From: Azospirillum lipoferum 4B
GTDB lineage: Bacteria; Pseudomonadota; Alphaproteobacteria; Azospirillales; Azospirillaceae
Direction of reading: 5' to 3'
NCBI RefSeq assembly: GCF_000283655.1
Contig: NC_016585.1
Span: forward strand, 589,501-653,500
Length of the DNA stretch: 64,000 nt
The notes below the pieces were generated by a model. It was not told the origin of the DNA and searched no databases. It saw nothing but the letters and a program-made list of their open reading frames with translations. The translations under genes were made by a program, and so were the position numbers. Below are positions 7,539-21,033 of this stretch, piece by piece; the first letter of the stretch is position 1, and the number at the start of each line of letters is the position of its first letter.

Positions 7539-9587
7539 TCAGGCGAGATAGTTCAGCAGCGACAGCTTCTGTGTCTGGCCGGCGACGGTATAGGTCGCCT
7601 GCTGCACGTTCATCGCACTGCTCAGCCTTGCGGCCACCTCGGTCTGGTCGATGCCCTCGATCGTGGCGAGGCGCTCGGTCAGGGTGGCGACGGACTCGGT
7701 GTGCGAGGTCTTGATGTTTTCCAGCGTGGCGCTGTCGGACGCGACCTTGGCATGGATCGACCGGATCTGGTCGGTGGCCTGGGTCAGCATCTCGCGCGCC
7801 TGGGTGCTGTATTCGGTCCATTTGCCGGGATTGGCCGCCGCGGTGCGGACCATCTGCATCGCCTTCACCAGGGTCTGGAACGCCTTGTCGTCGGCGCTGA
7901 CGCCATAGGCGATGTTCAGGTTGTCGTCGATGGTCACCTGCGACTTGCGGTAGGCCTCCGCGTTCTTGCCCTTGGACAGATATTCGGCGTCGTAGAATGG
8001 CAGATCGGGCGGATCGGCATAGGGAACGTTGATCAGGCTGTCCTGCTCCGGCGGCAGGGTCCCGACCGAGATGGTGTTCTCCAGCGACCCGTTCGTCACC
8101 TTGGCGGAGGTGGAGAACAGCGAGGTGCGGTTGGGATGGTTGGGGTCGGCGTTGGCCGTGCTGGTCAGCGCAATGCCGGGACCGTTGCCCACCGCGTCGA
8201 TGGTCACCGGCGGCGCGGGATTCAGCGTGGCGAACTGCTGACGCAGCCTGTCGGCGACCTGACTGACATCGGTGACGCCGGCGGCGTAATCGGTGTCGCT
8301 GACGGTGTAGCGCACCGTATAGGTCTGGTAGGGCGGCAGGTCGCGCGGCACCGTCGGGTTCTTGGTGTAGTAGTTCTGGTTGTAGGGATCGTCCGGATCG
8401 CCGACCGCGACGGTGAACTCGAAGGTGTCGCCGATGTCGACCGCGGCGCCGTTCAGGGTGAAGCGGTCGATCTGCGGCAGGGTGGCCGTCGGCGCCTGGG
8501 TGGTGGACGGCGTATCGACGCTGTTCTCCACCGTGGCGGAGTTCACGACACGCGCCGACAGGTCGAACTTCTGGCCGGGATCCTGGCCGACCAGCGTGAT
8601 GATGCCGTTGGAGGTCGACACCGTCATCGGCAGCGCCGGATTGGCGGCATTGATCTGCGAGGTCAGGGTCTGGGCGACGAAGGTCAGCGATTTCGGATCG
8701 GCCGCCTGGACCTGATAGCCGAAGGTCTGGCCGCTGACCGTCACCTCGAAATAATCGTCGGCGTTCACCACGGCGCCGTTCAGCGTGATCTTGCTGGTCT
8801 GCTTGGTCGCCAGCAGGTCGGTGACCGGCTCCGTGCCATAGCGCGAACCGGCGAACAGATAGCGGTCGCCGAAGCGCTGGTTCAGCAGCGCCTGGATGTC
8901 GCGCATGGCGCCTTCCGCACGGTCCTTCACCTGATCGGCCTGCGGAAAGGAGACGGCGAAGCTGCTGCTGGCCGACGCCTTCAGCGTGTCGAAGGTGAGG
9001 TTCAGCATGGCGCCCTCGCCCGGGCCGCCGGAGATGTTGAAGTTGTAGCCCTTGCCGTCGTTGGGCGGGGTGGTGCCCAGGTTGATGGCGCGGGTGGTCT
9101 TGCCGCCGAGCCCATCCGTCACCGTCACGTCGAAGGTGCCGTTGCCGCCCTGCTGCGAAGGCACGGCGGTGACCGTGTATTTCGCGCCCACCGTCAGCTT
9201 CGACTTGGCGGGATCGACCGACAGCTTCATCCCCTCGGGATTGGTGTTGATCGGCGAGGCGACGCTGGCCGGGCCGGGCTGGAAGGGAAGGGTCGTGCTG
9301 GAGGTCCAGCTCGATACGATCGATTCCAGCGACGTCAGCACCTTGTCCGTCGCCTGCACGCGCGGCGCCGCGGTGTTGATGCTCTGGATGTAGTTGCTCT
9401 TCGTCGCCATCTCCGCCCGCAGGTCCAGGAGCTTCTGCACCTCCGGCCCATAGGCATTGAGATCGACCGACTTCTTGCCCGTGGTCAGCTGTTCGGACAG
9501 CCGGTTGATGTCGTTCTGGCCGCCGGACAGGTTCCGGACAAGGCTCAGATATTTCGAGTAGCTGCTGACTCCCGTTATCGAGCTCAT
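7539..9587 (-). CDS. flgL: Flagellar hook-filament junction protein FlgL (HAP3), expanded
   Basis: 682 residues, about twice the usual FlgL length. The N-terminus (SSYSKYLSLVRNLSGGQNDINRLSEQLTTGKK) and C-terminus (ATIEGIDQTEVAARLSSAMNVQQATYTVAGQTQKLSLLNYL) are flagellin-type D0/D1 helices. The FlgL hallmark RYLFAGS is at about 242-248. Between the conserved ends lie extra modules, at about 265-345 and 374-480, of the form ITLNGAxVxxxDxFEFTV plus a SQINAANP helix, resembling those in FlgE here. FlgL joins hook to filament together with FlgK. The start overlaps the end of flgK by four bases (ATGA), with GGAGG ten bases before the ATG. Confidence 0.88.
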   Translation of the reverse strand: MSSITGVSSYSKYLSLVRNLSGGQNDINRLSEQLTTGKKSVDLNAYGPEVQKLLDLRAEMATKSNYIQSINTAAPRVQATDKVLTSLESIVSSWTSSTTLPFQPGPASVASPINTNPEGMKLSVDPAKSKLTVGAKYTVTAVPSQQGGNGTFDVTVTDGLGGKTTRAINLGTTPPNDGKGYNFNISGGPGEGAMLNLTFDTLKASASSSFAVSFPQADQVKDRAEGAMRDIQALLNQRFGDRYLFAGSRYGTEPVTDLLATKQTSKITLNGAVVNADDYFEVTVSGQTFGYQVQAADPKSLTFVAQTLTSQINAANPALPMTVSTSNGIITLVGQDPGQKFDLSARVVNSATVENSVDTPSTTQAPTATLPQIDRFTLNGAAVDIGDTFEFTVAVGDPDDPYNQNYYTKNPTVPRDLPPYQTYTVRYTVSDTDYAAGVTDVSQVADRLRQQFATLNPAPPVTIDAVGNGPGIALTSTANADPNHPNRTSLFSTSAKVTNGSLENTISVGTLPPEQDSLINVPYADPPDLPFYDAEYLSKGKNAEAYRKSQVTIDDNLNIAYGVSADDKAFQTLVKAMQMVRTAAANPGKWTEYSTQAREMLTQATDQIRSIHAKVASDSATLENIKTSHTESVATLTERLATIEGIDQTEVAARLSSAMNVQQATYTVAGQTQKLSLLNYLA

Positions 9588-10993
9588 CGGACCACCGCCT
9601 CCAGCGCATCAAACATTGCATTGGCCACTTGCATGACCCGTGCCGAAGCCTGGTAGGAGGTTTGGAGCTGCTGCAGCTGGGCGATTTCCTCGTCGATGTT
9701 GACGCCGGTCTGCGACTGGTAGCGTTCCGACAGCAGCTGCATCGACGCCTTGTTGGACTCGCTGGCGGTGTTGGCGGTCTTGGCCGCGGCCATCCAGGTA
9801 CCGGTGATGGCGCTGCCCATGGCGCTGTAGCTGGTGTCCTTCAACTGCAGGCCGTCGGCGCTGAAATTGCGGCCGGACGCGTTGATGGCCGTGACCATGC
9901 CGTCGATGGCGGCCCGCTTGATCTTCGTGGTGTTGTCCACGAGTTTTTCGTTCACGGCGATGGTGAAACGGTCGCTTCCGGTGAAGAACTGGTTGATCTG
10001 CTCGCCGTCGGCGGCCGGGGAGGACTCGTCGTAGGCGTCGGCAAAGCTGGTCGGTTCCCCCGGCCGGGTCGCGCCGGTGAAGGCCTTGGCATATTCGTCC
10101 AGCTGGGAGCGCAGCTTGCGGATGACTTCCGCCGCCGGGTCGCCGCTGGCCGGCGTCGGCGGTTCGGTGGTCGAGCCGTCCTTGCGCATCTGGATCAGCG
10201 AACCCAGCTTGCCGGTGCTCAGGTGGTTGTTGATCGAGGTGACTTGATTGCCGACCTGTAGGTTGATGTTGCCGCCGTCATAGGTAAGATTTGCCGGCTG
10301 GGAATCGACCAGCGCCAGACCCGACGGGGTGAAGATCGCCAGACGGCCGTCCGGACGCTCCACGGTGCGGATGCCCATATATGCGCTCAACTCGCGCACC
10401 AGCCCGTCGCGCTTGTCGGCGACGGCGTTGGCGGCGGACCCCTGGCCCAGCAGCGACACCATGTCGTTGTTGATCGAGTTGATCTGCTTCAGCAGGCCAT
10501 TGACCGTGTCGACCGACTTGGTGATGTCGGTCGACATGTCGCGGTCGAGCTGCTCCACGCCCTCCGACACACGGCGGATCTCGCGCGAGAAATTGTCGGC
10601 GGCCTGGACCAGCTGGTATTGCGCGGTCTCGTCCTCCGGCGAGGTGGCGAGCGTCTTCACCGCCGCCTGGAACTTGCTGGCATAGTCGTTCAGCAGCGGC
10701 GTGCCGTTCGTCGTCCGCATCAGGTCGCCCAGCTTCTGCATGTAGGTCGCCGTCGCCTGCGATCCGCCGTCGCGCGCGGTCAGGTCCATCACCTGGGCCA
10801 TCAGCGCCTTGTCGACTTCCCGGCGATAGGTCGTGCTGATGACCTGACCGCTGGCGTCCACCGACTGCTGCGCGGTGTGGCGCGTGCGGGTCGGATCGTT
10901 GGCCTGCGCGATGTTGTCCGAAACCAGCTTGACGTTGGTCTGGACGGTGCGCAGCCCGGCCGTGGCGCTGTTCAAGGCTGCGAAGAGGGACAT
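9584..10993 (-). CDS. flgK: Flagellar hook-associated protein FlgK (HAP1)
   Basis: 469 residues. The N-terminus (SLFAALNSATAGLRTVQTNVKLVSDNIAQANDPTRTRHT) is the hook/HAP N-terminal helix. The middle has DKRDGLVRELSAYMGI, typical of FlgK. The C-terminus (GVNIDEEIAQLQQLQTSYQASARVMQVANAMFDALEAVV) is the standard HAP1 C-terminal helix. It is secreted by the flagellar type III system and caps the hook before filament growth, so no cleavable signal is expected. It forms a two-gene unit with flgL (4-base overlap), 128 bases after flgE. AAAGG lies about nine bases before its ATG. Confidence 0.92.
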   Translation of the reverse strand: MSLFAALNSATAGLRTVQTNVKLVSDNIAQANDPTRTRHTAQQSVDASGQVISTTYRREVDKALMAQVMDLTARDGGSQATATYMQKLGDLMRTTNGTPLLNDYASKFQAAVKTLATSPEDETAQYQLVQAADNFSREIRRVSEGVEQLDRDMSTDITKSVDTVNGLLKQINSINNDMVSLLGQGSAANAVADKRDGLVRELSAYMGIRTVERPDGRLAIFTPSGLALVDSQPANLTYDGGNINLQVGNQVTSINNHLSTGKLGSLIQMRKDGSTTEPPTPASGDPAAEVIRKLRSQLDEYAKAFTGATRPGEPTSFADAYDESSPAADGEQINQFFTGSDRFTIAVNEKLVDNTTKIKRAAIDGMVTAINASGRNFSADGLQLKDTSYSAMGSAITGTWMAAAKTANTASESNKASMQLLSERYQSQTGVNIDEEIAQLQQLQTSYQASARVMQVANAMFDALEAVVR

Positions 10994-11121
10994 GGCAGGG
11001 GACCTTTCGCGGATCGGGAGGATCGGGGCGGTGCCGGGATGGCCGCCGCCCCCCTCAGGCGATCAGGGAAACGGGCGATGGAACGCAGGCGTTCAGGAGG
11101 TCAGGAGGTCAGGGCCGCGGC

Positions 11122-13764
11122 TTAGCGCTTCAGCCCCAGCACTTCCTGCAGCATTTCGTCGGAGGTGGTGACGATCTTCGCGTTGGCGGAATAGCTGCGC
11201 TGGGTGACGATCATCTTGGTGAACTCGTCGGCGATGTCGACGTTGGAGCTTTCCACGCTGTTCGCCACCACCGCACCGGCGCCGTTCGTCTCCGGATCGT
11301 TGAAGTTCGGCTTGCCGGCGTCCTCGCTCTCCAGGAAGACGCCGCCGGACTCGCGCTGCAGGGCGTTCGGGTTGTTGAAGGTGATGATCGGCACCCTTGC
11401 GATCATCTTCGAGCGTCCGTTGTCGTAGTTGACCATGACGGCGCCGTTGTCGCCGAACACGACGTCCTTGAACTGCCCGCGCGGTGCGCCGTTCTGGATC
11501 AGGCGGCTGACATTGATCTCCTCGCCGGCATACTGGGTCAGACCGCCCGGCTTCTGGTACTTGCCGAGGTTCAGCGAGATCTGCTGCGGGCCGAAGCCGT
11601 AATCGACGGTGAAGGTGACGTTGGCGTCGGAGCCGGCCGACTGGTTGGCGGCGCTGACCGCGGTGCCGGTGCCGACCAGGGCGGTGGAGATGTTGGTCAG
11701 CGTTCCGACCGTCTCCGGCGTCTTGCCGAAGGTCAGGCCGATATGGGCCGGCGTCTGGCCGGCGACCGCGCTCTGTTCCAGGGTGAACTGGGCGGGAGCG
11801 GCGTCGGTCACGCTGACGGTGGCGGCGGCGTCGCCCGTCGCCAGAACCGTGCCGGTCCCGTTGACAGTGGCGGTTCCGCCGTCGGCAACGATCTCAGTCG
11901 CGAAATAGTTCAGGAGCTTGGCCGGAGTGTCATAGAGCCCGTAGTTGGCGTTGGTGATCGTCAGGCTGTAAGGCTGACCGTTCACCGTCATGCTGTAGGT
12001 GTCGCCGATATCGACCGTCGAACCGCCGAAAGTGATGTTGCCGGCGCCGTCATTGGTCAACGTGTTGGTGCCGGTCGGGCTGGCCGCGGTCTTGGCGGTG
12101 ACGGTGATGACGCCGCCCTGGGCGGTGGCGGTCACCGGCAGCGAGGTGTTGGCGTTGATCTTGTTCGCCAGCGCCGCGGTGATGTCCTCCATCGTCATTT
12201 CTTCGCCGGTGGTGCTGTAGGTCACCGCCGTGCCGTTGATGCTCAGCGTGTACTGCGTGCCGATGTCGCCCGGCGTGCCGGTCAGCGTCACCGTGCGGCT
12301 CTGGCGCACGCCGGCCACGCTGGCGACCGACGGCAGCGAGCTCAGCGTGTTCACCGCGCTTGCGGAATTGGTGACCGCCGCGGAGCTGGTGACGTTGGTG
12401 TTCGCCGTGTTGGACTGAATCGACAGGATGTTGCCGGCGGACGAGGCGGTGACGGTCGTCCCGAGCTGCTGGTTGATCTTGCCGGCCAGCTGGGACACGA
12501 CGTCGCTCACCGTCGAATAGCTCTGATAGGTCGCGGCGGTCACCGTGTAGCTGATCGGCGTGCCGTTCACGGTGATGGTGAAGGAGTCGCCGATCTCGAC
12601 CTGGGTCTGCGGGAACTGGAACTTGTCGATCTCGCCGGCGCTGGCCGTCGCCGCGGTCGAGGTCTGGGCGACGATGGTGTTGGTGGTGTTGGTGCCGGAC
12701 GACACCTCCGTGTTCAGCTTGAACGGCGTTCCGGCCTCGCGGGCGGTAACGCGGATCGTCTGGCCGGAAGAGGTGGCGAGCACCGACGCCGCCGGGGAGG
12801 CGGAGTTGATCTGGTTGGCCAGCGCGCCGGCCAGCCCCGAATAGGTGCGGATCGAGCCGATGTTGTCGGCGGTGATCTTCAGGCTGTAGTTGGTGCCGTT
12901 GACCTTGACCGTATAGACGTCGCCGATGCGCAGGTTGTCCTGCCCATTGGTGTTGTTGCCGGAGATGGTGACGACGTTCACCTGCGCCACCGCCGTCTGG
13001 CCGGCGATGTTCTGGCCGAAGGTCACGGTGGCCGGATTGCCGCTGAAGGTGCCGTCGACCGGCTTGGTGTTGGAACCCGGCGCGTCCAGAACCATGCGCC
13101 AGCTGCTGTCCGCCTGCTGCCGCCACTTGAAATTGATGGTGCGCGGGTTGCCCTGGCTGTCGAAGATCGGAATGCTGCTGTCGGGGATCGGTTTGCCGGG
13201 CGTCGGGGTGGCCGGCAGGTTGGCCTCCAGGTCGATGGTGCTGGTGGCCACCGGCTTGTCGATCAGCGAGCTGACCTGGACCGGCGCCACCTGATCCTTC
13301 TTCAGCACACCCGTGACCGGATCGACCAGCCAGCCGTTCAACGCATAGCCGGAGCTGTTCACGAGGTAGCGGCTCTTGTCCAGTTCGAAGTCACCGGCGC
13401 GGGTGTAATAGACGGAGGACGCGTTGACCGCGCCCGTCTGGGTCTGAACCAGCGTGTTGGTGCTGTTCTGGAGGTTGATCTTCGAAACGCTGAAGAAGCC
13501 CTGGCCCTGGATGGCGACGTTGGTCGGGCTTTGCACCTGCTTCAGGCTGCCCTGGATGTTGTTCATGAAGACCGGCTGCGCCGTGACCCCGCCCGGCTCG
13601 TGCAGGCGCTGGCTGGACTGCAGGACCATCGTCTCGAACGCCGAATCGACGCGCTTGTAGCCGATGGTCGAGCTGTTCGCGATGTTGTCCGAGATATGTC
13701 CGAGCGCCTTCGACTGGGCATTCAGGCCGAGAACGGCGGTTGTCATCGAACCGAAGATGCTCAT
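11122..13764 (-). CDS. flgE: Flagellar hook protein FlgE, unusually long (880 residues)
   Basis: 880 residues, roughly twice the size of enterobacterial FlgE. The N-terminal rod/hook helix (MTTAVLGLNAQSKALGHISDNIANSSTIGYKR) and the C-terminal domain (ESSNVDIADEFTKMIVTQRSYSANAKIVTTSDEMLQEVL) are canonical. NVAIQGQGFF and YTRAGDFELD are FlgE-type segments. The outer domain contains four related modules that start with an IGDxYxxxVNG turn at residues about 280, 391, 501 and 586. Such insertions would decorate the hook surface. GGAG lies nine bases before the ATG, and a sigma-54-type promoter lies 49-64 bases upstream, as in other alphaproteobacterial hook operons. Confidence 0.93.
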   Translation of the reverse strand: MSIFGSMTTAVLGLNAQSKALGHISDNIANSSTIGYKRVDSAFETMVLQSSQRLHEPGGVTAQPVFMNNIQGSLKQVQSPTNVAIQGQGFFSVSKINLQNSTNTLVQTQTGAVNASSVYYTRAGDFELDKSRYLVNSSGYALNGWLVDPVTGVLKKDQVAPVQVSSLIDKPVATSTIDLEANLPATPTPGKPIPDSSIPIFDSQGNPRTINFKWRQQADSSWRMVLDAPGSNTKPVDGTFSGNPATVTFGQNIAGQTAVAQVNVVTISGNNTNGQDNLRIGDVYTVKVNGTNYSLKITADNIGSIRTYSGLAGALANQINSASPAASVLATSSGQTIRVTAREAGTPFKLNTEVSSGTNTTNTIVAQTSTAATASAGEIDKFQFPQTQVEIGDSFTITVNGTPISYTVTAATYQSYSTVSDVVSQLAGKINQQLGTTVTASSAGNILSIQSNTANTNVTSSAAVTNSASAVNTLSSLPSVASVAGVRQSRTVTLTGTPGDIGTQYTLSINGTAVTYSTTGEEMTMEDITAALANKINANTSLPVTATAQGGVITVTAKTAASPTGTNTLTNDGAGNITFGGSTVDIGDTYSMTVNGQPYSLTITNANYGLYDTPAKLLNYFATEIVADGGTATVNGTGTVLATGDAAATVSVTDAAPAQFTLEQSAVAGQTPAHIGLTFGKTPETVGTLTNISTALVGTGTAVSAANQSAGSDANVTFTVDYGFGPQQISLNLGKYQKPGGLTQYAGEEINVSRLIQNGAPRGQFKDVVFGDNGAVMVNYDNGRSKMIARVPIITFNNPNALQRESGGVFLESEDAGKPNFNDPETNGAGAVVANSVESSNVDIADEFTKMIVTQRSYSANAKIVTTSDEMLQEVLGLKR
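11785..12948 (-). repeat. Four degenerate tandem modules inside flgE
   Basis: Residues about 273-660 of the hook protein carry four copies of a module: IGD[VST][YF]xxxVNGxxYS-like turn, a 20-25 residue helix containing LAxxIN, then a T/V-rich strand pair. Unit spacing between the IGD turns is about 111, 110 and 85 residues. Copies have diverged strongly at protein level, so this is an old domain expansion and not a recent tandem duplication. Confidence 0.6.
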
Positions 13765-13812
13765 GGCCGGGGTCTCCGAAAGAATAGGGCAAAGGTCTTC
13801 TGCGCCCTATCT

Positions 13813-13828
13813 AGCAAACGGAGTGCCA
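13813..13828 (-). promoter_or_regulatory. Sigma-54-type promoter of flgE
   Basis: On the minus strand the sequence is TGGCACTCCGTTTGCT, against the sigma-54 consensus TGGCACGNNNNTTGCW: the -24 GG and -12 GC have exact spacing and only one conserved position differs. The predicted start point is around 13801, leaving a leader of about 37 bases before the flgE ATG. Sigma-54 control of hook genes is established in several alphaproteobacteria. Confidence 0.75.
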
Positions 13829-13993
13829 ACTGCGATGGGGCCGGCAACCCATTGAAATCTCGTCATTCGAGGCGCGAGCGGTACGGCAGCGCCCGAATTT
13901 GCCGGGAGGTGGGAAAGTTTCGCCTAGTACCGGCGGGGGCGGGCGGGCAGAAAGCTCCCGCCGAAGTGGCCGCCCGCCGGCAGCGTCGGGTCC

Positions 13994-15943: not shown

Positions 15944-18469
15944 TCAGGCGGCGTCGATGACTCGGGGGAAATGCAAGGTGAAGCGGGTGCCCTGGCCGGG
16001 ATGGCTCTCCACCCCGATGGTGCCGTGCAGGCGGCCGGTCACCAGATTGTAGACGATGTGCAATCCAAGCCCACTGCCGCCGCTGCCGCGGCGGGTGGTG
16101 AAGAAGGGATCGAAGATCTTCGGCAGAACCTCCGCCGCGATGCCGTTGCCGTCGTCGGCCACCGACAGTTCCACCATGTCGCCTGCGCAAGGCCGGGCGG
16201 ATATCGCGATGCGGCCCGGCTGTTCCGGGTCCAGCGCGTGGATCAGCGCATTCATGATCAGGTTGGTCAGGATCTGCGACAATGCCCCCGGATAGCCGTC
16301 CAGTTCCAGGTCGGCCGGGCAGTCGACGGCAATGGTCAGCGCCGCCCGCGTCTTGTAGGTCGGATGCAGGCTGCGCAGAAGCTCATCGATATAATCCCTC
16401 AGCAGGAAGGCGCGGCGTTCGTCGCTGGACTGGTCGACGGCGACCAGCTTGAAGCTCTGCACCAGATTGGCGGCGCGGGTGCTGTTGGACAGGATCAGGT
16501 TCGCCATCTCCACGCCGTCGCTGAGGAAGCGCTGGAAGTCCGACTTCTTCAGCGCGCCGGCGGCATGGCGTTGCGACAGCTCCTCGATCAGCGCCTGCAG
16601 CTGGGAGGCGCCGGTGATGGTGATGCCGATGGGGGTGTTCACCTCATGCGCCACGCCGGCGACCAGTTGGCCCAGCGAGGCCATCTTTTCCGCCTGGATC
16701 AGGCTGGCCTGGGTCGCCTTCAGCTCGCACAGCGCGCGTTCGGCGGCGTCGCGCGACTGGCGCAGCGCATTCTCCGCCTCCACCTCGCGGGTGACGTCGA
16801 CCACCACCGCCTGGATCGCCGGACCGTCCATCCAGTCGACCCGCCGGCCGGTCAGCTCCACCCACAGGCTGCCACCGTCGGGACGGCAGGCGCGGATGCG
16901 GCGGCGCGGCGTGGACCCGCCGTCCAGCAGCCGGTCGTAATTGTCGATCAGCCCGTTGCGTTCGTCCACCGGCACCAGCGACAGCAGGGACGGCAGGGCC
17001 ATCACCTCGGCCACCGTCAGCCCGAGCATGGCGGCGAAGCTGTCGTTGGCATAGAGCGGGTGGAAATCGCGATGGATGATGATGCCCTGGATCGATCCCT
17101 CGACCAGATCGCGGAACCGCCGCTCGTTTTCGGCCAGCGCCCGCTGGCGCCGGTCGATCTCGTCGATGAAAAAGCGGATGGAGCCGCCGATGTCGGTGAT
17201 CTCGTCGTCGCCATCCACCGGAACCGGGACCGGCATCGGCACGGGACCCTTCGTCCCCGGGCCGGCCGGCGCCGCTCCGTCGCTGCGCTGCCGGCCGGCA
17301 TCCTCCTGGCTCGCCGATAGCCGGGCCAGAACCGCCCGGTTCATCGCCACCAACCGCGAGGACAGGAAATGCCGGAAGATGAAATAGACGCAGATCGCCA
17401 GGATGATCGAGGCACCGGCCAGCATCATCACCGTGCGCGACCGCTCGGCGATCAGTTCGGCCAAGGCGTCGGTTCGTTGGGCCGACTGGTCGCGGATCGA
17501 ATCGTAAAGCGTGCGGGTGGACCGTTCGACCGTCTCCACCAGCACGCGGGCCTGACCGGTCAGGGCCTGGGCGCGGTTGCGCGCCTGCAGCCGGTCGATG
17601 GCGCTGTGGAACAGCCCGCCCGGCGCGACCAGCAGCGAAAACAGCTCCTCCTGCACGGTCGACATCATCTGTCCGGTGGTGTCGGGCGCATCGGCGGACA
17701 GGCGCGCCAGATCCGCCAGCGTGCGTTCGGCCGCCCGCGCCTCGCCCTTCAGGCGGCTGAGATGGTCCAGCTGCGTGGCGCCCGCCGCCCGCGCCATCAG
17801 CGCACCGATGCGGACAGCCCAGGCGCCGGTGTCGGGCATGCTCTCGATCGAGGCGGCAAGCCGGCTCAACCCCCGCGCCGCTTCGGCCTGACGGTCGCCA
17901 TAGTCGATCTGGCGCGTGACCTCGGCGTTCAGGTCGGCAACGGTGGCGGCCAGAATCAGCAGGGTGGAGCGGGTCTGCTCCAGCAGGCGGACATTGCCGT
18001 CGCGCTCGCCGTCCTCATTGCCGCTCTCCTTCATCAGCCCGCGCATGCGGGCGACGAGGAGCTGCATGGAGTCCAGCTCCGTCACCAACCCGTCATAGAT
18101 GGAGCGGCGCTGCGGGGTCGAGGTGGCGGCGGCGAGCTGCGGCAGCTGCGCCACCAGCTTCTGCAGGGACCCGTGCAGATCGGCGCTGGCGATGACCTCC
18201 GGCAGGGTGGTGGTCGACAGCGCCGTCACCTCCGCCCGAAACAGGCGGAAGGACGACATCGACACGACGCCGATCAGCACCACCAGCAGGGCCATCACCG
18301 ACAGCCCCAGCGTGATGCGCACGGCGATGCCGAAGCGGCGCGGCCGGTTCGGCGGCGGGAACTGCGGCGACGGCCGCGCCCCCGGCAAGGTTCCCGGCTG
18401 GGGCCCGGGTCGGGTCAATGCGCCGGACCGTGGCGGGCTCTCGGCGATCGAGGAGGCCATGCCGTCCAT
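15944..18469 (-). CDS. Membrane PAS-domain sensor histidine kinase
   Basis: 841 residues. A Pro-rich cytoplasmic start is followed by membrane helix 1 (47-70), a roughly 270-residue mostly helical periplasmic region (72-344), membrane helix 2 (345-366), a linker, a PAS domain (450-563), the phospho-acceptor helix with H608 in GVAHEVNTP, and the ATPase domain (NLIMNALIHA, DDGNGI, GLGLHIVYNLV). The large helical periplasmic region is reminiscent of TorS-type sensors that read a periplasmic partner protein. The start codon shares one base with the stop of the upstream pseudo-nucleotidase gene (TGATG), so the two are translationally coupled. No response regulator is adjacent. Confidence 0.88.
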   Translation of the reverse strand: MDGMASSIAESPPRSGALTRPGPQPGTLPGARPSPQFPPPNRPRRFGIAVRITLGLSVMALLVVLIGVVSMSSFRLFRAEVTALSTTTLPEVIASADLHGSLQKLVAQLPQLAAATSTPQRRSIYDGLVTELDSMQLLVARMRGLMKESGNEDGERDGNVRLLEQTRSTLLILAATVADLNAEVTRQIDYGDRQAEAARGLSRLAASIESMPDTGAWAVRIGALMARAAGATQLDHLSRLKGEARAAERTLADLARLSADAPDTTGQMMSTVQEELFSLLVAPGGLFHSAIDRLQARNRAQALTGQARVLVETVERSTRTLYDSIRDQSAQRTDALAELIAERSRTVMMLAGASIILAICVYFIFRHFLSSRLVAMNRAVLARLSASQEDAGRQRSDGAAPAGPGTKGPVPMPVPVPVDGDDEITDIGGSIRFFIDEIDRRQRALAENERRFRDLVEGSIQGIIIHRDFHPLYANDSFAAMLGLTVAEVMALPSLLSLVPVDERNGLIDNYDRLLDGGSTPRRRIRACRPDGGSLWVELTGRRVDWMDGPAIQAVVVDVTREVEAENALRQSRDAAERALCELKATQASLIQAEKMASLGQLVAGVAHEVNTPIGITITGASQLQALIEELSQRHAAGALKKSDFQRFLSDGVEMANLILSNSTRAANLVQSFKLVAVDQSSDERRAFLLRDYIDELLRSLHPTYKTRAALTIAVDCPADLELDGYPGALSQILTNLIMNALIHALDPEQPGRIAISARPCAGDMVELSVADDGNGIAAEVLPKIFDPFFTTRRGSGGSGLGLHIVYNLVTGRLHGTIGVESHPGQGTRFTLHFPRVIDAA

Positions 18470-20091
18470 CACCGCCTCACCGTCATCCGGCCATCCAGCC
18501 GCGGAACGAACTCCCCGTCGCGGGTGATCTGGCCGATCAGCTGGGTGGAGACGAAGTCCGTGTTGCGGTCCTCCACCAGCCGCGGCGCCCCGGCCAGCAT
18601 GCCATAGCCGTCGCCGCCGGCCGCGAGGAAGCTGCTGGTCGCCAGCCGGTAGTGGGTGGAGAGGCCGACCGGCTTGCCGCCGACCGACAGGCTCCGCAGC
18701 CGCTGGCCTGGCGGGCGGCTCAGGTCGATCTCGGCGCGGGCATTGGACAGGTGCGGAAAGCGGCCCTGCAACTGCTCCACCGCCGACACGCCGCTTTCCA
18801 CCGCATCCCACAGCTGCTGCCCGGTGACGTCCAGCACCACGCCGACATCGTGATAGGGAAGCTCGGCATAGATGTCGCGGCGGGTCAGCAGGGCGCCGGC
18901 CGGATAAAGCCGGTCGCCCCTGATGCCGCCACCATTGATCAGCGCCACATCGACGTCCAGCGCCGCGCGCAGCATGTCGACGACGGCGTTGGCGAAGGCA
19001 TTCTCGCCGGTGCGCACCGCTTCCTTGCGGGTGTCCATCGGCCCGGTGAGACGTCCCACCTCCATCCTCAGCATGGTGTCCAGCCGTGCCGCATAGGCCT
19101 TGGCCTGGATGTCGGTGGCGGCGTCGGGCGCGACGGCGGCGGTGTCGATCAGCCGGGGGGAGGGGGCCCAGGTCACCCGCATCCTTCCGTCCGCCTGCAG
19201 CGTCCGCTCCACCGTCAGGTCGAGCGCCAGCAGCCATCCTGCCTGCGGACCGACGGTGGCCGACAGGAACCGGCCGTCATAGTCGACGGCGAAGGGGCGG
19301 TTGCGGTCCTGGTACAGCACGATGTCGGCCGGGCGGGCAGCCAGGATGCTGCGGTGGGTGTCGCCGGCATAGCCGGTCATCGCCACCACCAGATCCACGC
19401 CCTCCTTCCGCAGCGCCGCGGCCTTGGCGGCCAGTGCGGCGACGGGATCGCGGAATTCCGTGCGCTGGGTCCGCGTGGTCTCCCGCGTCAGAACCGGGGT
19501 TGCGGCCAGCACGCCGATGCGCAGCGGACCGGCGGTCAGCACCACCGCCTCCTCCAGCCCGTCGGGCGTGCGGCCCGTCGAGCGGTCGACGCTGTTGGTG
19601 GTGACGATGGGGAAGCCGGCCTCGAAGGCGCGAGCGCTCAGCTGGTCGTCGCCATGGTGGAATTCGCGGTTCAGCGCGGCCATCGCATCGATGGTCATGC
19701 CGTTCAGCAGGTCGATGATGTGCGCGCCCTGGTCGTAGAAGGCCAGCACCGACGGCGCCAGCGTCTGGCCGCCATGCAGGGCCAGCACAAGCTGATGGCT
19801 GTTGCGTTCCTGCCGGATCGCACCGGCCAGACGGGCCATGCCACCGCGGCCGGCGGTCGCCTCCAGGTCGGTGGTGCCCTGGGCGTACAGGATGGTCAGC
19901 TTGACCGGGGCGCTTGCTGCGGCCGGCGGTGTCGCCGCGGGATCAGCCCGCTGGGCATGCGACGGGGCGGCGTCGAACGCAAGCCACAGGGCAAGACCCA
20001 GCGCGAGCGGGAGGATCAGGGATGACAATGTCCTGCCGGGCCGGGACCGCATCCCGCCGGCAGTGCCGCTTCCAATACCGATGTTGTCCAT
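18469..20091 (-). CDS. Exported 5'-nucleotidase-like protein with degenerate metallophosphatase domain
   Basis: 540 residues with an N-terminal export signal (hydrophobic 22-40, cleavage near SHAQ, 47). The two-domain UshA/CpdB-type architecture is present. In the N-terminal half, however, the metal ligands are missing: DxH reads AQGTTD (70-75), the GD motif reads HGGQT (106-110), GNHE reads LNREF (140-144), and the usual GHTH reads YQDRN. The C-terminal nucleotide-binding half keeps NGGGIRGD and SSFLAAGGDGYG. I infer a periplasmic ligand-binding protein, not an enzyme. It is first in an operon with the histidine kinase (TGATG overlap) and may present a ligand to it. An in-frame ATG at 20052 is an alternative start. 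Confidence 0.8.
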   Translation of the reverse strand: MDNIGIGSGTAGGMRSRPGRTLSSLILPLALGLALWLAFDAAPSHAQRADPAATPPAAASAPVKLTILYAQGTTDLEATAGRGGMARLAGAIRQERNSHQLVLALHGGQTLAPSVLAFYDQGAHIIDLLNGMTIDAMAALNREFHHGDDQLSARAFEAGFPIVTTNSVDRSTGRTPDGLEEAVVLTAGPLRIGVLAATPVLTRETTRTQRTEFRDPVAALAAKAAALRKEGVDLVVAMTGYAGDTHRSILAARPADIVLYQDRNRPFAVDYDGRFLSATVGPQAGWLLALDLTVERTLQADGRMRVTWAPSPRLIDTAAVAPDAATDIQAKAYAARLDTMLRMEVGRLTGPMDTRKEAVRTGENAFANAVVDMLRAALDVDVALINGGGIRGDRLYPAGALLTRRDIYAELPYHDVGVVLDVTGQQLWDAVESGVSAVEQLQGRFPHLSNARAEIDLSRPPGQRLRSLSVGGKPVGLSTHYRLATSSFLAAGGDGYGMLAGAPRLVEDRNTDFVSTQLIGQITRDGEFVPRLDGRMTVRR

Positions 20092-20174: not shown

Positions 20175-21008
20175 TCATATTGATGACGCGCGGGAAGGAA
20201 GTGTCCGTCTTATCCATTCGTACAGGCCGAGAATCCGTAGAATGCCAATCAACCTCATGCGCAACGGCGCCGGGACTGCGGCAAAACGTGGCGCCAGCCC
20301 GGCGCGCTGCGTCTTGGCGAGGGTCGCCCGGCGCGCATAGGCGACGCGGTGCAGGGTGACGCGCCCGGTATCGCTGTCGAAACAGGCGAAGCAGGCGCGT
20401 TGGTCCGTCCCGCGCGGCTCCCCCACCGTGCCGGGGTTCAGCAGATAGACCGCATCGGCCCGCAGCGTCGCGCCACCGTCCAGCGGAATCGGCCGCACCG
20501 AACCGTCCCGCCACTCCCACAGCCCGGCGCGGTGCGTATGGCCGAAGGCGCAGACCCGCGCTCCGGATGAGTGGCCGGCGAGCGCCTGAAGGCTCAGGGC
20601 GCGCTTGGCGTCGTCATCCAGCCGCACCAGTTCCTTGCCCTCGTCCGGGTGCAGGGCACCATGCACGGCGACCAGCGCGTCATCGACCACGGCGGTCAGC
20701 GGCAGGCCGGACAGGAAGGCGCGGCTCTCCTCGTCCAGCCGCCGCCGGGTCCAGTCGACGGCGCGCGCCGCCGGACCGCTGAACCCCTCGGTCCCGATGA
20801 CGCCGGTCACCGCCCGGTCATGGTTGCCGGCGATACAGACCGCCCCCGCCTGCCGCAGCAGGGCGATGCAGGCGGCGGCATCGGTGTTGTAGCCGACGAT
20901 GTCGCCCAGGCAGACGATGCGCTCCACCCCCTCCGCCCCTATGGCGTCGAGCGTCGCCTGCAGGGCTTCCAGATTGGCGTGGATGTCGGAGATCAGGGCG
21001 ATCTTCAT
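20175..21008 (-). CDS. YfcE-type metallophosphoesterase
   Basis: 277 residues. All motifs of the calcineurin-like phosphoesterase fold are intact: SDIHAN, CLGDIVGYN, AGNHDRAV, VHGALH and FGHTHRAGLW, which supply two metal sites. A LLNPGTVGEPRG segment follows, as in YfcE-like phosphodiesterases. A basic C-terminal tail follows from about residue 225. The start MKIALISDIHAN at 21008 places the first motif at the N-terminus as usual. It is last in a three-gene operon (25 bases after the ATP-grasp gene). Substrate is unknown; the neighbours suggest a phosphorylated intermediate of cell-surface or small-molecule synthesis (inference). Confidence 0.85.
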   Translation of the reverse strand: MKIALISDIHANLEALQATLDAIGAEGVERIVCLGDIVGYNTDAAACIALLRQAGAVCIAGNHDRAVTGVIGTEGFSGPAARAVDWTRRRLDEESRAFLSGLPLTAVVDDALVAVHGALHPDEGKELVRLDDDAKRALSLQALAGHSSGARVCAFGHTHRAGLWEWRDGSVRPIPLDGGATLRADAVYLLNPGTVGEPRGTDQRACFACFDSDTGRVTLHRVAYARRATLAKTQRAGLAPRFAAVPAPLRMRLIGILRILGLYEWIRRTLPSRASSI

Positions 21009-21033
21009 GGCCGTGAAATCTTTCGAGTTGCGG

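Follow-up and report, generated by a model that had tools for sequence, protein, structure and literature searches.

This study concerns two adjacent genes in a 64,000-nucleotide stretch of DNA from Azospirillum lipoferum 4B (NC_016585.1, positions 589,501–653,500; hereafter the window, to which coordinates refer unless a locus is named). The first, NUC (18469–20091, −), encodes a predicted exported pseudo-5'-nucleotidase of 540 amino acids, which matches the family PF02872 and has lost all but one of eight metal and catalytic positions; the second, HK (15944–18469, −), encodes a membrane histidine kinase of 841 amino acids. As NUC is metal-dead, retains its substrate pocket and has a kinase adjacent in every copy examined, it is probably the external receptor of that kinase.

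In NUC, a signal-like hydrophobic segment was located at residues 21–39 by its hydropathy peak and is followed by the cleavage-like site S44-H45-A46/Q47, recognized by inspection, the whole forming a signal-peptide-like stretch (residues 21–46; 19954–20031, −). Behind it lie a degenerate metallophosphatase half, delimited by alignment with UshA and relatives (residues 63–315; 19147–19905, −), and a nucleotide-binding half (residues 340–540; 18472–19074, −). In Pfam the protein matches 5_nucleotid_C (PF02872) at 6.2e-33, which passes the cut-off, and gives no match to Metallophos (PF00149) at E ≤ 0.1; the latter family is present in L015, L017 and L018 (locus numbers of our own), which belong to the relatives with a largely intact metal site, termed competent below. 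NUC has counterparts of both enzyme halves, since residues 82–537 could be aligned with snake-venom 5'-nucleotidase (phmmer). The motifs AQGTTD (70), HGGQ (106), NREF (141), YQDR (260), NGGGIR (386) and FLAAGGDGY (488) were located at the residues given. The description in the initial annotation of an exported UshA-like protein with a retained nucleotide-binding half is borne out by the signal-like segment, the Pfam match, the two-domain homology, the last two of these motifs and the pocket residues described below.

HK comprises a first transmembrane segment (TM1), a helical periplasmic sensor, a second transmembrane segment (TM2), a PAS domain, an H-box with His608 and an HATPase domain. The hydrophobic segments, at residues 52–70 and 347–365, enclose 276 residues predicted to lie outside (71–346; 17432–18259, −), in agreement with the helical periplasmic domain of about 270 residues that had been proposed; this is the sensor domain for which a relationship to TorS via intermediates is described below. 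The H-box, AHEVNTP at 607, and N-, G1- and G2-like motifs were all named by eye, and no REC or Hpt domain was found in HK with Pfam. The junction of the two genes reads CGG TGA TGG, confirming that stop and start share one base in the overlap TGATG (18467–18471, −). TGATG or TAATG occurs at this junction in 12 of 17 rows (the window and 16 loci), including L012, where the frame opened by this ATG ends after eight codons; a short gap separates the two genes in the remaining five rows. In A. ramasamyi, the DNA of which matches the window at 91% over 95% of 10 kb, RefSeq places the start of NUC 21 codons after the start of the longest open reading frame and that of the kinase at the second ATG, three codons downstream; both starts given here are therefore likely rather than certain. 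In that species the two genes carry only the RefSeq names '5'-nucleotidase C-terminal domain-containing protein' and 'ATP-binding protein', so that the pair is invisible to this annotation.

To describe the metal site, eight positions were scored against Escherichia coli UshA (D41, H43, D84, N116, H117, H217, H252 and Q254, with the letters checked), which we take to be the dimetal ligands and the catalytic His. At these positions the window NUC has G, T, Q, N, R, G, D and R and thus keeps one of eight, Asn141 (UshA Asn116); the earlier statement that every metal-binding motif is replaced therefore holds for seven positions and fails for this asparagine. The tabulation against UshA, which had been suggested as a check, separated 116 sequences cleanly into 59 that keep 0–2 of the eight positions (termed dead) and 57 that keep 6–8 (the competent rows, with UshA included and five being second fetches), with none between; the frame-broken G045 C5 copy of A. 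thermophilum is omitted from it. The catalytic His is replaced by Arg in 57 of the 59 dead proteins and by Leu in two (L106 and L148). The first five positions differ between the three lineages of dead proteins considered below, reading G/S/T, T/S, Q, N and R in A type (with Leu in L148), T, A, A, K and R in B type, and R, T, D, P, R and R, G, D, A, L in the two C types, so that Asn141 is retained in A type and the equivalent of UshA Asp84 in the two C-type proteins.

The substrate side is different. The equivalents of UshA R379, R410, F429 (F/Y; Tyr in the window), F498 (F/Y) and D504, presumably the substrate-pocket contacts, are kept in all 59 dead proteins. On the basis of these residues NUC is dead on paper as an enzyme, with the metal and catalytic site lost and the pocket retained. 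In the available part of PMC8071527, UshA is described as having a dimetal centre in the N domain and a substrate site with two aromatics in the C domain, and as working by hinge rotation of its domains. At the position of UshA Asn431, beside the stacking aromatic, all of the A and B types read have Asp, with Asn in the two C types and in the competent relatives except L176, which is misaligned there. The window residue is Asp415 (18847–18849, −), an Asp where competent relatives have Asn beside the base-stacking aromatic, and the replacement suggests that base specificity may be altered in A and B types, as a possible specificity switch.

In seven comparisons with the window, omega was 0.17–0.55 for the phosphatase half of NUC, 0.12–0.38 for the C-terminal half and 0.58–1.74 for the signal and linker. 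Both halves are thus under purifying selection, and the phosphatase half is therefore not simply decaying. This near-equal constraint would also suit an alternative that we consider unlikely, namely that NUC is a ligand-independent subunit that clamps, activates or inhibits the kinase, with the retained pocket being only structural. Accessory proteins that act on kinases do exist, as described for QseG–QseE and DbfQ in the portions of the literature available, and apo-TorC binds and inhibits TorS according to the available part of PMC8534201; against a purely structural role for the pocket speaks the retention of five pocket positions in all 59 dead proteins, in contrast to the metal positions, which now hold several different residue sets. 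Distinctly improbable is an alternative in which NUC retains an enzymatic activity, with another metal set or towards another bond, the kinase reading the product or the active enzyme. The surviving Asn141 of A type, the Asp84 equivalent of two C-type proteins and the selection on the phosphatase half would be consistent with it, but the catalytic His is lost in every dead protein and at most two of the eight positions are left. 

The search for NUC at the level of the order covered 82 genomes and gave 58 strong matches (>400 bits) in 43 genomes, and the same order was searched with an alignment of the paired sensors, for which a strong match was at least 150 bits. All 58 NUC matches have a sensor match just downstream on the same strand, the gap between the two profile matches being 48–807 bases (the value of 807 belongs to the frame-broken G045 C5 copy), and 58 of the 59 strong sensor matches are paired with NUC, the 59th starting 51 bases from a contig end. 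The 57 of these 58 NUC copies that were read are all metal-dead (0–2 of eight positions). An adjacent same-strand open reading frame for a kinase or sensor was found at all 58 dead loci examined (the 57 just mentioned plus L016, which is identical to L094 in its NUC and sensor sequences) versus none of 56 competent rows; these rows represent 51 distinct places, as L108–L112 are second fetches of L066, L067, L069, L070 and L074, and two of the places hold only 199 and 226 bases downstream. The recurrence of the arrangement in all of the strong NUC matches of the order indicates that it is not due to chance, and conserved adjacency, which had been named beforehand as a test that could refute the proposal, held.

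Weaker and more distant relatives did not extend the pattern. Of 41 order-level matches of 310–375 bits, 19 were fetched, and the remainder have no adjoining sensor match of at least 150 bits, as judged by coordinates only. A sample of the class (385 genomes) contained 47 NUC relatives outside G001 and G016, the two genomes of the order, and the 28 that were read are all competent, with no sensor of the paired type in the flanks covered; strong sensor matches in this sample are confined to G016 and G054, which are likewise members of the order. In a sample of the phylum (398 genomes) the only strong sensor match is the starting genome. The class and phylum searches scored 4–6 first-look candidates per genome, so that weak members may be missed, and within the sample covered the NUC–sensor system seems to be confined to this order. 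In the phylum sample, a 1191-amino-acid open frame of G736 (C1 1235128-1236015; L178, L180 and L181) resembles the paired sensors weakly (81 and 66 bits).

Trees were calculated with 27 of the 59 dead proteins and with 31 of the 57 competent rows (28 when the metal motifs were masked). The 27 dead representatives form one clade with 100/100 support against the 31 competent proteins, and the same clade is recovered against 28 after masking, so that a single origin is the most economical interpretation. The groups A, B and C were recovered with support of 99–100 in a tree of 27 paired sensors too, and the paired sensor domains share ancestry. Both A and B matches are carried by 14 genomes, and G045 carries a B match and a broken A copy. 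The A-type NUC of A. thermophilum (L014:5917-7455, L182) runs through several reading frames, with a broken sensor beside it, and the B-type copy in that genome, L103, is open; the broken copy may be a pseudogene or may reflect sequencing errors. No REC domain was found in the A-type kinases scanned, whereas the back end of the kinase is HisKA-HATPase-REC-Hpt in B type and PAS-PAS-HisKA-HATPase-REC-Hpt in C type. Behind the B-type kinase of L016 lies a second protein, REC-HisKA-HATPase (L016:9349-10545), the kinase half of which is 41% identical to HK over 295 residues. Seven other neighbours from the window were sought at L016 (B type), L183 and L184 (C type) and L185 (divergent A type), and none was found in the stretches covered, whereas NUC and the sensor are present. 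The conserved unit is thus the receptor together with the sensor domain, and the neighbours and the kinase back ends vary between lineages. Although adjacency and translational coupling by themselves prove just co-expression, and most cases lie within one genus, it is very improbable, and the least likely of the alternatives, that the two genes share no more than a transcript and work independently (NUC scavenging nucleotides for uptake, for example), because the pair persists amid other neighbours in all three lineages and neither member stands alone among the strong matches, one contig end excepted.

With the profile of the paired sensors, six further kinases were found at 6e-18 to 2.4e-27, the best shuffle shown from 400 shuffles having E 3.5, and hhalign aligned the paired sensors with this six-kinase set at a probability of 99.6% over 300 columns. 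Five of the six pass the cut-off of the Pfam family TorS_sensor_domain (PF21689), and a profile of these intermediate kinases recovers E. coli TorS (1.5e-6, residues 3–185). Some of them also match the general helical family 4HB_MCP_1, and the shuffles do not control for amphipathic helices. By this transitive route the sensor appears to be related to the TorS sensor domain, most strongly in its N-terminal half. In Pfam at E ≤ 10 the window sensor itself gives only 4HB_MCP_1 (0.22) and DUF4381 (0.99), with no PDC/Cache family; PF21689 gives E-values of 0.024 in B type and 0.074 in one C type, neither of which passes the cut-off, and is absent at E ≤ 1 from the second C type and from a divergent A type. 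A search of PDB sequences with the sensor returned nothing relevant. The neighbours of two of the six intermediates were scanned, the TorS-sensor kinases L135:1884-6625 and L137:3202-8105; both have a gene for an SBP_bac_3 binding protein beside them in divergent orientation and are possible further receptor–kinase pairs.

In the mechanism that we propose, NUC would dock onto the helical periplasmic domain of HK, and a ligand in its C-terminal half would close or rotate the two domains, as in working UshA. The changed docking would then be passed to the kinase as a piston-like signal through TM2. The ligand, at a guess, may be a nucleotide, a nucleoside or a nucleotide sugar.

Several observations weigh against this proposal. 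The window sensor gives no match to PF21689 at E ≤ 10, the alignment of the paired sensors reaches a probability of only 2.7% over 46 columns when compared directly with E. coli TorS by hhalign, and in BLASTP the similarity of HK to TorS is confined to the kinase half. No response regulator was recognized beside the pair among the window genes scanned, and most of the paired cases come from one genus. Residual activity of NUC, or a protein rather than a small ligand, is compatible with the sequence. With these points taken into account, we consider it probable that NUC is an exported, catalytically dead homologue of 5'-nucleotidases and serves the adjacent TorS-type HK as its co-receptor in the periplasm. 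Tentatively, and with somewhat more doubt than confidence, we suggest that it may be a dedicated extracellular nucleotide, nucleoside or nucleotide-sugar receptor, in which a former destroyer of the molecule would have become its sensor through loss of the metal site with the hinge retained, the unit then having been attached to different back ends.

Further genes surround the pair. Upstream of NUC and on its strand, at a distance of 83 bases, is a calcineurin-like metallophosphoesterase gene (20175–21017, −). It was considered as a part of the unit and rejected: it is present at 12 of 19 loci (L001–L011 and L013), all of A type, and within the stretches fetched it was not found at the B locus, the C loci, L012, L014, L019 or L185. 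FlgE-like and FlgK genes (9584–13764, −) lie downstream of the pair, and FlgE also adjoins other A-type pairs, such as that of A. brasilense (L019). A flagellar role of the pair was likewise rejected, as FlgE- and FlgK-like genes were missing from the B and C loci tested. At L003 a tyrosinase-like gene with a Tat-like leader, recognized by eye (12269-13930), lies between HK and DUF1491, and the spacing at L006, L008 and L011 suggests an insert there too.

Among the matches listed from the open-licence PMC literature, none describes a protein of nucleotidase fold as the partner of a histidine kinase, and the main text of a paper on the distribution of ushA-like genes (PMC10454023) contains neither 'inactive' nor 'histidine kinase'. 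Exported co-receptors for kinases are already known, TorT, the known ligand-bearing partner of TorS, being a binding protein; the new element is a dead nucleotidase as the partner. If the proposal is true, a dead hydrolase would be the obligate partner of a TorS-type sensor, enzymes could become receptors of two-component systems, and the pair would hint at bacterial sensing of nucleotides from outside the cell, giving plant-associated Azospirillum a two-component pathway for nucleotides from roots or lysing cells. The clean split between dead, paired proteins and competent, unpaired proteins provides a ready genomic test set for the origin of pseudoenzyme receptors.

The pair may finally be compared with known systems, of which TorT/TorS and LuxP/LuxQ had been put forward in the initial annotation as analogues. 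LuxP has a sugar-binding-protein fold. According to the available part of PMC8534201, the kinase in LuxP/LuxQ, a system for AI-2 sensing, reads its ligand through a separate periplasmic protein, as is proposed here, but the sensor of LuxQ is a double PDC domain, in contrast to the helical sensor of HK; as this is a different sensor class, the comparison stands only as a functional parallel. As in TorT/TorS of E. coli, which responds to trimethylamine N-oxide (TMAO), the gene for an exported protein adjoins that for a kinase whose periplasmic domain is all-helical, and on the kinase side this comparison goes beyond analogy by way of the intermediates, although the direct tests against TorS fail. 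The TorS sensor is described, in the same partially available source (PMC8534201), as two stacked four-helix bundles with piston signalling, with TorT and TMAO as ligands and also bound by TorC. The B- and C-type kinases share the HisKA-HATPase-REC-Hpt order of TorS, with 30% identity over 646 residues between TorS and the B-type kinase, outside most of the sensor; HK differs in having a PAS domain and no REC or Hpt domain. The partner here is a dead nucleotidase with no similarity to TorT (BLASTP E 0.16), and TMAO is not implied as a ligand. To our knowledge, the accessory proteins of GltB/GtrS and QseG/QseE are not nucleotidase homologues. These systems are alike, in the portions of the sources available, in that a periplasmic or outer-membrane accessory protein controls the kinase. 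With UshA and CD73-type 5'-nucleotidases, NUC shares the two-domain homology and the retained C-terminal pocket residues, and it differs from them in having lost the metal centre and the catalytic His and in being paired with a kinase.

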